A program made the position numbers and the translations under genes. The notes below the pieces were generated by a model. That model saw nothing but the letters and a program-made list of their open reading frames with translations, was not told the origin of the DNA and did no database searches. A stretch of DNA of 64,000 nt from Paenibacillus amylolyticus (lineage in GTDB: Bacteria; Bacillota; Bacilli; Paenibacillales; Paenibacillaceae). Where the stretch lies: positions 3,596,001 to 3,660,000 of the forward strand of contig NZ_CP121451.1 of NCBI RefSeq assembly GCF_029689945.1, given 5' to 3'. Shown here piece by piece: positions 5,289 to 50,442 of the stretch. Each line of letters opens with the position of its first letter. Within the stretch, counting starts at the first letter, position 1.

Positions 5289-5510
5289 ATGGATCATCCA
5301 ACCGGCAATGATTATATTGTAATTAAGGCAGAGGAAAATGGTGTCCAGGTGATCGGATTAACCCGAGGTCAGGATACACGTTTTCACCACACCGAGAAAT
5401 TGGACAAGGGTGAAGTGATGTTTGCCCAATTTACGACTCATACTTCAGCTATTAAAATCCGGGGCAAAGCCACGCTGATTACTAAGCATGGACAGATTGA
5501 ATCGGAGTAA
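5289..5510 (+). CDS. mtrB: trp RNA-binding attenuation protein (TRAP)
   Basis: A 73-residue TRAP subunit. Starting at the ATG at 5289, residue numbers coincide with the Bacillus subtilis protein: the RNA-contacting K37, K56 and R58 and the tryptophan-pocket residues T25, T30, Q47, T49 and S53 are all present. TRAP forms an 11-subunit ring that, when loaded with tryptophan, wraps RNA carrying about 11 spaced NAG triplets. Such a target is visible in this window at 14978-15042, ahead of trpE, so the circuit looks complete. AAGGAAGGGG precedes the start; a GTG one codon earlier (5286) is an alternative. It is followed by a strong terminator. Confidence 0.96.
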
Positions 5511-14942: not shown

Positions 14943-14971
14943 TTGTCAAACGGAACATAATGATGTATAGT
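14943..14971 (+). promoter_or_regulatory. trp operon promoter
   Basis: TTGTCA (14943-14948), a 17-nt spacer and TATAGT (14966-14971), starting 9 nt after the aroH stop. The predicted start site near 14978 places the TRAP target at the very 5' end of the transcript. Read-through from aroH would also cover it. Confidence 0.7.
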
Positions 14972-14977
14972 GAGAAC

Positions 14978-15042
14978 CAGTTGAGTAGAGTAGAGATTGA
15001 GCTGAGAGCAGCTGAGCTAGTTGAGTATATAGCAGAGTCCAG
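14978..15042 (+). promoter_or_regulatory. TRAP binding site: 11-13 NAG triplets in the trp leader RNA
   Basis: GAG, TAG or CAG triplets start at 14978, 14983, 14988, 14993, 14999, 15004, 15009, 15014, 15018, 15023, 15030, 15035 and 15040, mostly 2-3 nt apart. This is the spacing TRAP needs to wrap RNA around its 11-subunit ring. The first triplets (CAGTTGA, 14978-14984) can also pair with TCAACTG (15072-15078), a possible antiterminator that bound TRAP would disrupt. Together with mtrB in the same window this strongly supports TRAP attenuation. Confidence 0.88.
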
Positions 15043-15360
15043 TGGGTGGTAACCGGGGCAACAGAAACCGGTCAACTGATTCACGGTACGTCGTGCTACG
15101 GAAGTTGTAACAGGTACAGGGCGAACAAATTTGTCATAGGACATCTTTTGTTTTGATATATTTTGGTACAAACACAATCAATGCACTATCCCGTATTTAC
15201 TAATACCGGATGGAGTAGTTGAAGTGTTATAACTGATTTATTTTCCCAAATTGGATAAAGTGAGATGTATCCATTCAGCGACCTGTGAATAATCCGAGAG
15301 CGAAGTATAGGGACTTGTTATTTATGAAACATCACCCTGTTAAATACAGCTTATAACCAA

Positions 15361-15388
15361 ACCTCTACCTGATGGTAGAGGTTTTTTT
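15361..15388 (+). terminator. Strong terminator in the trp leader
   Basis: ACCTCTACC, TGAT, GGTAGAGGT and six T residues form a perfect 9-bp stem with a T tract. It lies about 320 nt after the TRAP site and 278 nt before trpE, so it must be crossed by any transcript from the trp promoter. The stretch 15080-15360 holds no gene; it has a smaller stem (CCGTATT/AATACCGG, 15190-15210) and a weak TGTC/GACA stem before TCTTTTGTTTT (15132-15154). Confidence 0.88.
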
Positions 15389-15416
15389 CATTGTATATTA
15401 AATCGTTTCTTCTTCC

Positions 15417-15644
15417 CCTATAAGTTCAACTAATCTTTTACACAATAACGAAGAGGACAGAAATAACGTGAAGAAGCGAAGCGTTCGCCTAAAAGCTTTC
15501 TGAAAGAAAGCTACATCGGAAGCATGCGCTATCCCCGGATTTTCCCTTTAGAAAGGGAATCAAAAAAATCTGGGGATAACAGCGATCGGAAGGTTGTTCT
15601 GTCATCGGAGTGCTCAGTGTAACCTCTTTAGTTGAACTTACCTA
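15417..15644. mobile_element. Candidate MITE-like or structured-RNA element with 13-bp terminal inverted repeats
   Basis: TAAGTTCAACTAA (15421-15433) and TTAGTTGAACTTA (15628-15640) are perfect inverted repeats, flanked on both sides by the direct repeat CCTA (15417-15420, 15641-15644). The 194-nt interior has no gene but several stems: GCGAA/TTCGC (15476-15488), AGCTTTCT/AGAAAGCT (15494-15512), and a long one, TATCCCCGGATTTT with AAAATCTGGGGATA (15530-15578), enclosing TTCCCTTT/AAAGGGAA. ATCGGA occurs three times (15515, 15585, 15604). This fits a small non-autonomous transposable element or a folded RNA inserted between the trp terminator and trpE. Confidence 0.55.
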
Positions 15645-15665
15645 AATCTGAAAGGACGTGATCTG

Positions 15666-17235
15666 ATGATAACGCCAAACGTTAATCAAGTACTGAAAAT
15701 GTCAAATGAGTATAATCTGATTCCGGTAGTCAAACGGATTCTGGCAGATATGGAGACACCGATTCGAATATTCCGCCGTTATGCTGACAACGACCGGGCA
15801 TTCCTGTTGGAAAGTGTAGAGGGAGGGATCCAATGGGCGAGATACTCGTTCATCGGTACAGATCCGTTTCTGATGATTTCGGCCAAGAAGGGTCGGATTG
15901 TTGTAGAAGAAGCAGGGAAAACTCGTGAGTTGCCAGGCAAACCGATCGAGGAACTGAAAGCACTGCTTCGTAAGTATCGCAGTCCAAAAGATGATGAAGC
16001 TGCCACCATTCACAGGTGGAGCCATTGGTTTCTTTGGATACGATCTGCTGTCTTATTATGAGAAGCTTCCAGCTCATGCGCTGGATGACCTGAATATGGA
16101 TGACATTCGCTTCATGTTCTGTGACCAGATCATCGTGTTTGACCATGTGAAGCAGCAGATGCTGCTCGTCGGTAATGTACACGTCAAGGACGGTGCAACG
16201 GATGACGAGATACGTCAAGCGTATGCAGTGACTTCAGAAAAGCTGGAGCAGGCTGCAGAACGGTTGCAGCAGCAAGGACCAGGCGAAAACCTGAATCCGC
16301 GTTCCATTCCGGGAGACGTGGAACTGGGGGATATTCGCTCCAACCTCACAAAGGAGCAATTTATCGGTAATGTGGAGCAAGCAAAAGATTACATTCGCGC
16401 AGGTGATATTTTTCAAGTGGTACTATCCCAGCGTTTCCATATTGATACGGAAGTTTCTCCGCTTCACGTGTATCGTGTGCTTCGGACCATGAATCCATCA
16501 CCTTATATGTACTATCTCAAAATGGATGATGAGATTATCGTAGGTACTTCACCTGAAGCGCTGGTCAAGGTGGATGGAAATCGTGTGGAGACACGACCAA
16601 TTGCAGGCACACGTCCAAGAGGCGCAACAGAAGCGGAAGATCGTGCACTCGCTGCTGATCTGCTCCAGGATGAGAAGGAACGCGCAGAGCATTTGATGCT
16701 GGTTGATTTGGGCCGCAACGATCTGGGCCGGGTATCCAGCTTTGGCAGCGTGAAGTGTGACATGTTCATGGAGATTGAACGGTATTCTCATGTGATGCAC
16801 ATGGTATCCAACGTTACAGGCGAGCTTAGGGAAGACAAAGATTTCTTTGATGCGTTCCTCTCATGCCTGCCGGCGGGTACCGTATCCGGTGCACCGGAAG
16901 CTGCGTGCAATGGAGATTATCGCAGAACTGGAGAAAGAGGCACGGGTGCTTATGCAGGAGCAATCGGATATCTTGGATTCTCGGGTAACATGGATTCCTG
17001 TATTACGATTCGTACGATTATTTTCAAAAAAGGAAAAGCATATGTACAGGCCGGAGCAGGAATCGTATGGGATTCTGTGCCGGAGAATGAATATGAGGAA
17101 ACGGTGAACAAGGCTAAAGCATTGCTCAAAGCGATTCGAACAGCAGAAGCGATGTTTCCTGCCAAAGAAAAGGACAGCACGTTGAGACTGGCCAATGCAG
17201 ACTACTTTGTCACACCAGCGGCTGCCAAGAACTGA
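15666..17235 (+). CDS. trpE: Anthranilate synthase component I (three indels)
   Basis: TrpE makes anthranilate from chorismate with the TrpG glutaminase, which is not in this window. Correcting indels gives about 522 residues, the usual length. The N-terminal frame (LESVEGGIQWARYSFIG) runs from 15666; one extra A at 15997-15998 breaks SPKDDELPPFTGGAIGFFGY. The frame from 15991 carries the catalytic part (GTSPEALVKVDG, IAGTRPRGATEAEDRALA, DSVPENEYEET). Within it an extra G at 16896-16897 and a lost G at 16944-16946 compensate each other and garble VSGAPKLRAMEIIAELEKEA. AAAGGA precedes the ATG at 15666. The indels look technical. Expression should be controlled by the TRAP leader upstream. Confidence 0.92.
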
Positions 17236-19859: not shown

Positions 19860-21055
19860 CACATCAATTGCCGGATCAACACGGGCGTTTCGGTCACTTC
19901 GGAGGCCGCTTTGTACCTGAGACACTAATGAACGCACTCATTGAACTTGAGGAGGCTTATAGCCACTTCTCTGAAGACGAGGAATTCAATAAGGAACTGA
20001 ACTATCTGCTGAGCGAGTATTCGGGGCGTGAAACGCCATTGTATCATGCAGAGCAATTGTCACGCCGGTTGGGCGGGCCGAAAATTTATCTGAAACGCGA
20101 AGATCTCAATCATACAGGCGCGCACAAAATTAATAACGCCATTGGACAAGGTTTGCTTGCCAAACGGATGGGGAAAAAGAAAGTTATTGCCGAAACGGGT
20201 GCAGGTCAGCATGGCGTTGCAACGGCGACTGTAGCTGCATTGCTTGGACTGGAATGTAAAGTATTCATGGGCGAAGAGGATACAAAGCGTCAGCAGTTAA
20301 ACGTCTTTCGGATGAAGCTGCTTGGTGCAGAGGTGATTCCGGTAACGTCTGGAACACGTACACTGAAGGATGCAGGTAATGAAGCACTTCGTTATTGGGT
20401 CTCCAATGTGGAGGATACGTTCTATGTTCTTGGATCAGTAGTTGGCCCTCATCCATATCCAATGATGGTGCGAAATTTCCAACGTGTGATTGGGGATGAG
20501 ACCCGTCGTCAGATTCAGGAGATCGAAGGACGTTTACCGGATGTAATTGTAGCGGCTGTCGGTGGCGGAAGTAATGCGATTGGTATGTTCTATCCATTCA
20601 TCGGTGATCAGGATGTGAAGCTTGTTGGTGTTGAAGCTGCAGGCAAAGGGGTCGATACCGAGTATCATGCGGCGACAATGAGCAAAGGTACGCATGGTGT
20701 ATTCCAGGGTTCCATGAGCTATTTGCTGCAGGATGAATATGGACAGGTACAGGAAGCACATTCCATCTCGGCCGGGCTTGATTATCCGGGTGTTGGTCCG
20801 GAGCATTCCTATCTCAAGGATATTGAACGGGCAAAGTATGTACCGATCACGGATCAGGAAGCACTGGATGCCCTTCAACTCCTATGTCGGACGGAAGGCA
20901 TCATTCCTGCTCTGGAGTCTGCTCATGCGGTAGCTCAAGTTGTGAAACTAGCGCCTGAACTCACAGCAGATGATCTTGTAGTCATCTGTCTGTCGGGACG
21001 TGGAGATAAAGACGTTGAATCGATCATGAAATACACGGGAGGCGATTTGGGATGA
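19856..21055 (+). CDS. trpB: Tryptophan synthase beta chain
   Basis: A 399-residue TrpB. The PLP lysine lies in [18 protein letters not shown] and the phosphate clamp in [29 protein letters not shown] and [13 protein letters not shown] are also typical. It condenses indole with serine to give tryptophan, receiving indole from the alpha chain TrpA. Both ends overlap neighbours by ATGA. The frame is uninterrupted. Confidence 0.97.
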
Positions 21056-21857
21056 ATCTGATGGACCAGACCTTCCAGCAATTGAAGCAACAGAATCGCA
21101 CGGCACTTATTCCATTCTTAACCGTGGGAGACCCGGATGTGGAGACAACGATTGATATCATCAAGGAGCTTGAACAGGCCGGAGCGGATATATTGGAACT
21201 TGGTGTTCCCTATTCCGATCCACTTGCAGATGGCCCGGTTATTCAGCGTGCTTCCGAACGTGCGCTGAAAAGCCAGATTACGATTCGTACTGTGATGGAA
21301 ACCGCAGCAAAAGCTCGTAAGGCGGGTGTGAAACTGCCGTTTGTGCTGTTCACGTATTATAATCCGGTATTACAGACAGGACTGGATGTATTCTTTGAAG
21401 AATTGGTCAAACACGATATTAGTGGCATGATCATTCCGGATCTGCCGATTGAGGAAGCGGAAGAGATGCGAGAACGCGCCAATCTTGCTGGTGTACATCT
21501 GGTGCCGCTTGTTGCGCCTACATCGAATGCACGGATTGAGCGGATTGTGAATGGAGCAAGTGGCTTTATCTATTGTGTATCTTCTCTTGGGGTAACCGGA
21601 GAGAGAGCTTCTTCTTCAATGGTGTAGAAAGCTTCATCGAGACGGTGAAAAGTCTGACAGACCTCCCCGTAGCGGTAGGTTTCGGGATCTCCAGTCATGA
21701 GCAGGTAGCCCATTTCTCCCGCATCTGCGATGGGGTTGTTGTAGGCAGTGCTATCGTTCGTCAGGTGGAAGATGCGATTCCTCTGCTTGGAAATCCGGAT
21801 ACGCGTTCAGCGGGACTGTTGCAAATTCGCAACTTTGTGGCACAATTAAAGGGATAG
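21052..21857 (+). CDS. trpA: Tryptophan synthase alpha chain (single frameshift)
   Basis: TrpA cleaves indole-3-glycerol phosphate and channels indole to TrpB. The first frame (21052-21627) has [36 protein letters not shown] and [14 protein letters not shown]; the second, ending at 21857, has [19 protein letters not shown] and [11 protein letters not shown]. They join if one base is restored near 21608-21617, giving [13 protein letters not shown]. The corrected protein is about 268 residues, the normal length. As given, the first frame stops 77 codons short. Like the other breaks in this window, it looks like a lost base rather than decay, since trpB and the rest are intact. Confidence 0.93.
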
Positions 21858-50134: not shown

Positions 50135-50171
50135 CACAAATAGAGTTACTTCGATAGAGAATTAGAAATGA

Positions 50172-50211
50172 AAAGAACCGGCAGACGGATATCCGACTGA
50201 ACCGGTTCTTT
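50172..50211 (+). terminator. Terminator after ypmB
   Basis: AAAGAACCGG (50172-50181) and CCGGTTCTTT (50202-50211) form a perfect 10-bp stem whose 20-nt loop contains CGGATATCCG. The T tract is short. The rest of the 300-nt gap is A/T-rich; a TATACT at 50301-50306 might be a -10 box, with no good -35. Confidence 0.7.
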
Positions 50212-50442
50212 GTGTTGCCTGTTTAAATAATTTTGATTTAAATAGTTAAAATTAATAATTTATTCATATTTTCGCCTTCGAAATTGTATATACGATGTGA
50301 TATACTCAGATATGTACTCAAAGATACATTCAAATTAAATAAATCCTGTCGAATTTTTCGTAGGAGTCCATGTACACATATTCGTAATATACCAAATAAG
50401 CCAGTAGATTAGGGCTAAAAAATCTGGGAGGAGTGATTCATT

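Follow-up and report, generated by a model that had tools for sequence, protein, structure and literature searches.

An apparent IS630-type miniature element with a conserved, predicted RNA fold precedes trpE and many other genes of Paenibacillus amylolyticus

Between the leader terminator and the trpE gene of the trp operon of Paenibacillus amylolyticus lies a densely folded stretch of about 220 bp, which raises the question whether it is a mobile element, a structured RNA or both, and whether it has a part in trp control. It stands in the 64,000 nucleotides analysed here (C1:3596001-3660000 of the genome, contig NZ_CP121451.1), hereafter called the window. A sequence-only reading had proposed a miniature inverted-repeat transposable element (MITE) or, equally well, a structured RNA, and had suggested that it could alter attenuation. 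The observation behind this reading is confirmed and the reading as a whole is partly supported: MITE and structured RNA appear to be right at the same time, and attenuation is not where the element is expected to act.

The perfect 13-bp inverted repeat described for the element was found exact, at 15421..15433 on the plus strand and 15628..15640 on the minus strand. In other copies of the family the terminal repeat is longer, about 18-19 bp (CTATATAAGTTGAACTAAA), together with an inner stretch of about 8 bp. Under a TA-target model the alignments of the family and of element-free trp sites, together with the match of the covariance model (CM), place the element at 15419..15642 (224 bp, plus strand, sense to trpE); the CM match of this copy covers 15413-15648 with an E-value of 4.5e-59. 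The nested internal stems and the three copies of ATCGGA are present as had been described, and the predicted RNA fold of 15417-15644 reaches -77.9 kcal/mol compared to -49.3 (sd 4.3) for 200 dinucleotide shuffles, none of which folded equally well (z -6.6).

Inside the repeats, all on the plus strand, an inner terminal stem pairs TTTACAC (15437..15443) with GTGTAA (15617..15622) and is a helix in both alignments of own-genome copies. It is followed by P2, in which GACAGAA (15456..15462) pairs with TTCTGTC (15597..15603) in the own-copy and cross-genus alignments, with covariation between genera. The hairpin P3 (GCGAA-GCG-TTCGC, 15476..15488) is weak, with 75% of the cells paired and one of four pairs changed on both sides, and next to it lies an optional hairpin module (15490..15527, borders approximate; stem AGCTTTCT/AGAAAGCT at 15494-15512), which is defined by the size classes of the family. 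The P5 stem TATCCCCGGATTT/AAATCTGGGGATA (15530..15578) with its inner hairpin at 15542-15559 is paired in 94.5% of the cells, and 12 of its 12 pairs are changed on both sides. A conserved linker, ACAGCGATCGGAAG (15579..15592), much of which is near invariant across genera, comes next. Downstream of the element follow a Shine-Dalgarno-like AAAGGA (15651..15656) and the trpE ATG at 15666, both on the plus strand.

No transposase is present inside the element, as had been stated, and the longest stop-free stretch is 51 codons in two typed consensus forms. A promoter was not found in the window copy, and the consensus forms gave only weak 9-of-12 matches. The 64-kb window holds no match above a gathering score of Rfam 15, a relaxed Rfam search of the element gave only matches far below the gathering scores, and 20 distant loci gave none. 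An origin from phage or plasmid was rejected, as 50,697 phage and 72,556 plasmid records gave no match at E 1e-5. Two further CM matches in the window were dropped: one at 50137-50254 (E 0.008), which resembles an ordinary terminator hairpin, and one that merely echoes the element on its antisense strand (E 0.0019).

The covariance model, built from 40 copies, was used to score the best 150 of 2,482 candidates in the 6.83-Mb genome. At least 150 family matches were obtained at E<=0.01 and at least 146 below 1e-15; the true number may be higher. A DNA search of the same genome gave, for the best 40 of 214 candidates, 40 long matches with 81-100% identity and one fragment. After leaving out the weakest copies and dropping three duplicate or cut rows, 137 of the 150 copies were examined. 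They are mainly about 190, 228 or 266 bp long, and these size classes differ by the hairpin module of about 38 bp, which occurs zero, one or two times. Compared with its nearest other copy in the genome, a copy has a median identity of 88%, and the best pair reaches 97.4%. Family matches at E<=1e-10 were found in 66 of 75 genomes of the genus, where at most the best 28 matches per genome were scored so that the copy numbers are lower bounds. In an evenly drawn order-wide set 59 of 119 genomes, from 11 of 34 genera, have a match at E<=1e-5, and thirteen chosen genomes from other genera and a second family hold 1-93 matches each with best E-values from 1e-26 to 7e-10.

The trp locus offers a direct comparison of filled and empty sites. 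trpE was found in all 40 genomes searched, and 30 trp loci, including that of the window, were read. The full element is present at nine of them (G000, G042, G049, G008, G011, G039, G016, G041 and G054), and one (G013) carries an internally deleted form, an arms-only kind of remnant. In twelve near relatives the leader is the same and the site is cleanly empty, one (G044) has unrelated extra sequence instead of the element, and seven belong to distant genomes with another leader. Among the 13 element-free near relatives five read TTCTACCTAAATC and six read TTCTACCTAATC. The long form stands at the trp site of G000 and G011 and the short form, which has no module, in G042, G039, G049, G008, G016, G041 and G054, so that the module either comes and goes within a resident copy or is exchanged by conversion between copies.

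From a species collection 66 named trp loci were compared, of which six have a match: P. xylanexedens DSM 21292, P. taichungensis NC1, sp. OVF10, sp. LS1, sp. OK003 and P. anaericanus. The match in the P. anaericanus trp leader (L283 1323-1454) is a distant core copy with different arms, perhaps an independent arrival. P. xylanexedens DSM 21292 gives the longest best alignment of the trp locus (92.7% over 3.3 kb), and the trpE half of the locus is 94-95% identical to two records that carry the labels P. polymyxa ISL-58 and sp. PAMC 26794. This places the host near the P. amylolyticus/xylanexedens group.

Ten further insertion sites were compared in 12 relatives. At nine of the ten the site is empty or nearly so in one relative or more, and the 30 fetched loci included no suitable one for the tenth. 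At one of these sites (L010) the gap was left unscored in two of ten loci, whose matches span the junction. The element is therefore a mobile, dispersed family, and the checks of copy number and of empty sites that had been suggested for it both came out in favour of mobility. The core can also be lost where the ends stay. At site L200 the arms alone are left in five of eight genomes, so the element is not essential there, and at site L217 the core is mostly kept in seven of 11 genomes and is lost, or the element absent, in four. In relatives of these two sites (loci L333-L349) what remains after core loss is a small hairpin made of the outer arms.

Insertion sequences of the IS630/Tc1-mariner group use a TA target and encode a transposase with HTH and DDE_3 domains, as described for ISY100 (PMC2170065). 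A possible partner of the element was found at locus L323 in another species of the genus, a 1162-bp element with the ends CTATATAAGTTGAACTAAAG and CTTTAGTTCAATTTATATAG. Its gene is split in two frames, and the resulting open pieces have matches to HTH families and to DDE_3 (PF13358, E 7.6e-37). The terminal repeats of this element are common to those of the family over about the first 19 bp. Relatives of the second open piece occur in 19 of the 75 genomes of the genus. Among 48 such transposase loci a matching end pair lies 0.7-1.5 kb apart at 12, which are nine distinct places as some were fetched twice, compared to 0.8 on average and at most four of 48 for 40 shuffled patterns; one of the nine places has a poor second end (four mismatches of 16, no CTATATA). 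The MITE-rich genomes G073, G066 and G089, with at least 28 copies each, are among the 19, and in G073 the transposase frames have no stops in the matched part, so that both MITE and transposase are present. Given these matching ends at transposase loci, the element is best classed as an IS630-type MITE, a MITE being one half of the sequence-only reading. It resembles this group in a probable TA target and in the common ends, and differs in that it has no transposase and that its interior appears to be an unrelated RNA.

In a search for DDE_3 the P. amylolyticus genome gave no match and eight of 23 genomes did; a DDE_3 scrap was seen in G008. With the transposase protein no match was obtained in the P. 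amylolyticus genome or in ten near relatives (G040, G011, G002, G042, G049, G022, G008, G039, G016 and G023). The likely partner is thus missing from the genome studied, and this absence counts against current movement in it and in these ten relatives.

CCTA does stand on both sides of the element, at 15417-15420 and 15641-15644, as had been noted. However, it was rejected as the target duplication, since the element-free sites read TTCTACCTAA(A)TC. A duplication of TA fits the trp site and some other sites better. The junctions read TTCTACC-TA-AATC at trp, GGATATC-TA-TTACATCC at L079 and GAGC-TA-GAAGG at L010, and in the window the left copy of the duplicated TA would be at 15417..15418, now CC, and the right copy at 15643..15644. 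Later changes have blurred the target at single sites: the empty sites at L008 and L149 have no clear TA, the junction of the trp copy can also be read as a 3-bp duplication of ACC, and some sites are compatible with no duplication at all. Over the copies of the genome, C precedes TATATAA in 23 of 41 clean left ends and G follows TTATATA in 21 of 33 clean right ends, which points to TA in a CTAG context. A preference of IS630 for TA within CTAG is given in the title of Tenzen and Ohtsubo (1991), cited in PMC2170065.

The second half of the question, the RNA, was approached by covariation. Changes on both sides are seen in 46 of the 73 pairs of one model-based alignment of own-genome copies (78 rows) and in 43 of the 58 pairs of another (62 rows), and the covariation scores are 0.130 and 0.188 compared to 0.089 and 0.109 for shuffles and at most 0.072 for slid partners. 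The outer arms were unpaired in the model behind these alignments, and the inner TTTACAC stem was partly paired. Pairing is found in 74% and 68% of the cells for the outermost arms, and in more than 90% for the P2 and P5 stems. When the arms were considered separately (136 rows), the own right arm paired with -17.45 kcal/mol compared to -12.48 for permuted arms, the best of 100 permutations reaching -13.46. For 72 copies with divergent arms the values are -15.82 and -11.13 (best of 200 swaps -12.22), and the own pairing beats the swapped mean in 54 of the 72. In the core stems G-U cells outnumber A-C cells by 116 to 76 (p 0.005) and in the arms by 130 to 99 (p 0.05), omitting pairs with less than 60% Watson-Crick cells. 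The excess in the core stems leans to a sense RNA over a DNA hairpin, and mutation bias could contribute to it.

The stems also covary between genera. A MAFFT alignment of 58 cores, which was not fitted to the structure, holds 34 cores from other genera and P. anaericanus, 23 from the P. amylolyticus genome and the window copy (57 of 60 drawn cores were used). It shows changes on both sides in 33 of 40 pairs, with 290 double-change cells compared to 100 in the shuffled control and 22-79 for slid structures, and a covariation score of 0.323 compared to at most 0.116 for slid structures, where the named structure, derived from one row of the alignment, is favoured over its slid versions. RNAalifold alone, run on the same alignment, predicted 28 pairs, all of them with compensatory changes. 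Around ACAGCG the linker shows no or almost no variation across genera, and several unpaired positions of the core are near invariant. The interior of the element is therefore, as far as alignment and folding can tell, a conserved multi-branched structured RNA. The sequence-only reading had named a single copy, no empty site elsewhere and no covariation in the stems as what would speak against it; the opposite was found on all three counts.

The homologous cores in other genera and another family mostly stand without IS630-like ends. Such ends are present on both sides in only four of the 34 copies from other genera and P. anaericanus. The flanks of these 34 copies pair with their own partner at a mean of -15.5 compared to -11.7, and in seven of 34 the own pairing is in the top 5%. 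With so few IS630-like ends and so few strongly pairing flanks across genera, the core would be old and the ends not.

How the copies lie relative to genes was determined for the 137 examined copies. By simple ORF calling none of them lies inside an ORF. With the neighbours given as left|right in orientation relative to the element, +|+ was found for 72 copies, -|+ for 23, -|- for 21 and +|- for 18, one side being unknown for three; convergent neighbours are thus found for 18 of the 134 copies with both neighbours called. When a start codon with a Shine-Dalgarno-like site and an open frame was required within 150 nt, 76 copies have such a start on the right only, 15 on the left only, nine on both sides and 37 on neither (p 5e-11), and the distance from the right end to the start codon has a median of 31 nt (85 copies). 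The copies favour a sense position just upstream of Shine-Dalgarno sites more than expected by chance. Among 19 copies of near relatives, some of them orthologues of copies in the P. amylolyticus genome and hence not all independent, 15 have a start on the right only, one on the left only and three on neither side, and among the 34 copies from other genera and P. anaericanus the numbers are 15, two and 17. The downstream genes are unrelated: 84 proteins fall into 123 Pfam families with at most three members per family.

Two other sources of the orientation were considered. The replication strand was rejected as the cause, for genes on the lagging strand have 15-20 sense and 7-8 antisense copies under three assumed replication termini. 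A dependence on copy age was not seen, the ratios being 30:3, 21:8 and 25:4 over three rank classes from nearest to most distant from the model.

For 64 sense copies that lie 12-60 nt before a start codon, the predicted unpaired fraction of the Shine-Dalgarno plus start region is 0.493 with the real element and 0.510 with the element removed (p 0.20). With the element reversed it drops to 0.444 (p 2e-4) and with the element shuffled to 0.443 (p 5e-5), a small predicted effect of 0.05. A self-contained leader fold would be expected to leave this region no less accessible than it is in the absence of the element. Our best guess is such a self-contained 5'-UTR fold which would keep translation open, and this would most probably account for the conservation of the fold as well as for the orientation.

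Taken with the ends, these results make it probable in our judgement that the element is a non-autonomous IS630-type MITE with a conserved multi-branched RNA interior, which would spread as follows. An IS630-family transposase acting in trans would cut the element at its inverted repeats, and the cut element would be pasted into a TA, mostly in leaders. It would then be transcribed within the 5' UTR of the next gene, where arms and core would fold into a closed structure and the ribosome binding site would stay free. A sense insertion would be cheap for the host, or would bring a gain through protection of the mRNA, and other insertions would be lost. At trpE the element may act on translation or on the life of the mRNA, not on the attenuation decision. 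The frequent loss of the core counts against a vital role. Against the reading as a whole stand further the absence of a common downstream function, the 88% median identity between nearest copies, the 37 of 137 copies with no start on either side and the 15 with one only on the antisense side, the small accessibility effect, the incomplete pairing of the outermost arms and the rarity of IS630-like ends in the other-genera set. A more tentative extension, to which we give somewhat less than an even chance, is that the core, with about 150 or more copies in one genome, represents a new and ancient class of mobile structured RNA of the Paenibacillales, occurring under differing ends in different lineages and acting in cis, as a ready-made 5'-UTR module, on translation or mRNA life of any gene downstream. 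If this is true, a DNA transposon carries an RNA function and is selected for it. The likelihoods that we attach to this and the other readings overlap and do not sum to one.

The strongest competitor is an ordinary IS630 MITE, in which the stems are relics of inverted repeats or DNA hairpins, the 5'-UTR bias reflects tolerated sites and the RNA has no role. This would agree with the ends in common with an insertion sequence, the empty sites, the absence of copies from called ORFs (0 of 137), the core loss at old sites and the lack of a common downstream function. Nevertheless we consider it unlikely. Stems of the core that covary between genera (33 of 40 pairs) lie far from the ends and are not explained by an inverted-repeat ancestry, and several non-paired positions are near invariant across genera. 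The bias is specific for orientation, with 72 sense and 21 antisense copies between co-directional genes, which is more than a choice of intergenic space. The G-U excess over A-C in the core stems (116 to 76) points the same way, and mutation bias could add to it.

Quite unlikely, in our view, is the converse, a class of cis-regulatory RNA (riboswitch-like or a protein-binding leader) that spread through the genome by copying and acquired transposon ends by chance. Conserved unpaired motifs in a multi-branched core found in at least two bacterial families, the sense 5'-UTR position with the start codon a median 31 nt away (85 copies) and the 30 of 34 copies of the other-genera set in which IS630-like ends are missing from at least one side would suit it. 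However, about 150 copies stand before unrelated genes, no terminator was found in the window copy, which does not overlap the Shine-Dalgarno site, the core is frequently lost and there are no Rfam matches. The preferred reading, an IS630-type MITE with a conserved RNA interior, can be set beside described repeats.

A mobile repeat with a conserved RNA fold is known in Firmicutes from the bcr1 repeats of the Bacillus cereus group, whose ends and target differ from those of the Paenibacillus element. The BOX of Streptococcus pneumoniae is described as a composite small mobile repeat with IS-like ends (ISSpn2) and an extensive RNA fold (Croucher et al., 2011, PMC3049150). It is similar in that its inner module (boxB) can be absent or multiple, where here the module occurs zero, one or two times, and one BOX lies upstream of the pneumococcal trp operon (PMC3049150). 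It differs in host and insertion sequence, the ends here matching an IS630-family element. BOX, RUP and SPRITE of pneumococcus are reported to be over-represented between convergent genes, and the description of BOX in PMC3049150 reports no sense bias before start codons, whereas the Paenibacillus element is strongly sense-biased. RUP of S. pneumoniae is similar as a MITE with ends resembling an IS630-family element, IS630-Spn1, but by its description it is set apart as a simple repeat of 107 bp, densest at 50-150 bp from genes and enriched between convergent genes (PMC3049150).

An IS630-type MITE is thus a known kind of element, and what is apparently undescribed is an order-wide structured RNA interior with a sense 5'-UTR habit, as Rfam 15 gave no match and no report of such a repeat in Paenibacillus was found among the matches listed for the openly accessible journal literature. 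Small bacterial repeats are often taken for parasites with incidental folds; here an RNA core is kept folded across genera. About 150 copies with matched empty sites in relatives make it possible to ask whether selection can act on a transposon through its RNA, and how such a module affects the many genes that it precedes. The family would be a new one for RNA annotation, and the window copy belongs to a trp operon whose leader is TRAP-like.

In this leader the upstream terminator of the sequence-only reading is indeed present (15359-15384, annotated as 15359..15391, plus strand). It is of the intrinsic type and belongs to the trp leader, between aroH and trpE and upstream of the element. Further upstream lies a TRAP-like run of 15 (G/T)AG triplets (14968-15037), the densest of the window, as only five of 25,562 overlapping stretches reach its level and all of these are there, and a gene for TRAP, mtrB, is found at 5289-5510 (PF02081, E 1.9e-40). 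Similar triplet runs were seen in trp leaders of several distant relatives. Every trpE message made by read-through would include the element, and as drawn the element cannot join the attenuation decision; an effect on attenuation is unlikely because the leader terminator precedes the element, which is present only in read-through transcripts. A trp-specific attenuation device, very improbable in our view, is largely refuted. In its favour are the position in the trp leader and the distant core copy found at the corresponding place in P. anaericanus; against it are the location behind the terminator, a (G/T)AG array and mtrB that can already account for trp control, and 13 of 30 trp loci which belong to near relatives without the element.

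trpE itself is split into overlapping frames in the window (15666-16061 and 15991-17235). In 39 of 39 other genomes it is one frame of 520-576 codons, and together with an estimated completeness of 95.8% this makes the split look like an assembly or sequencing error. trpA also seems to be split, into the overlapping frames 21052-21627 and 21573-21857.
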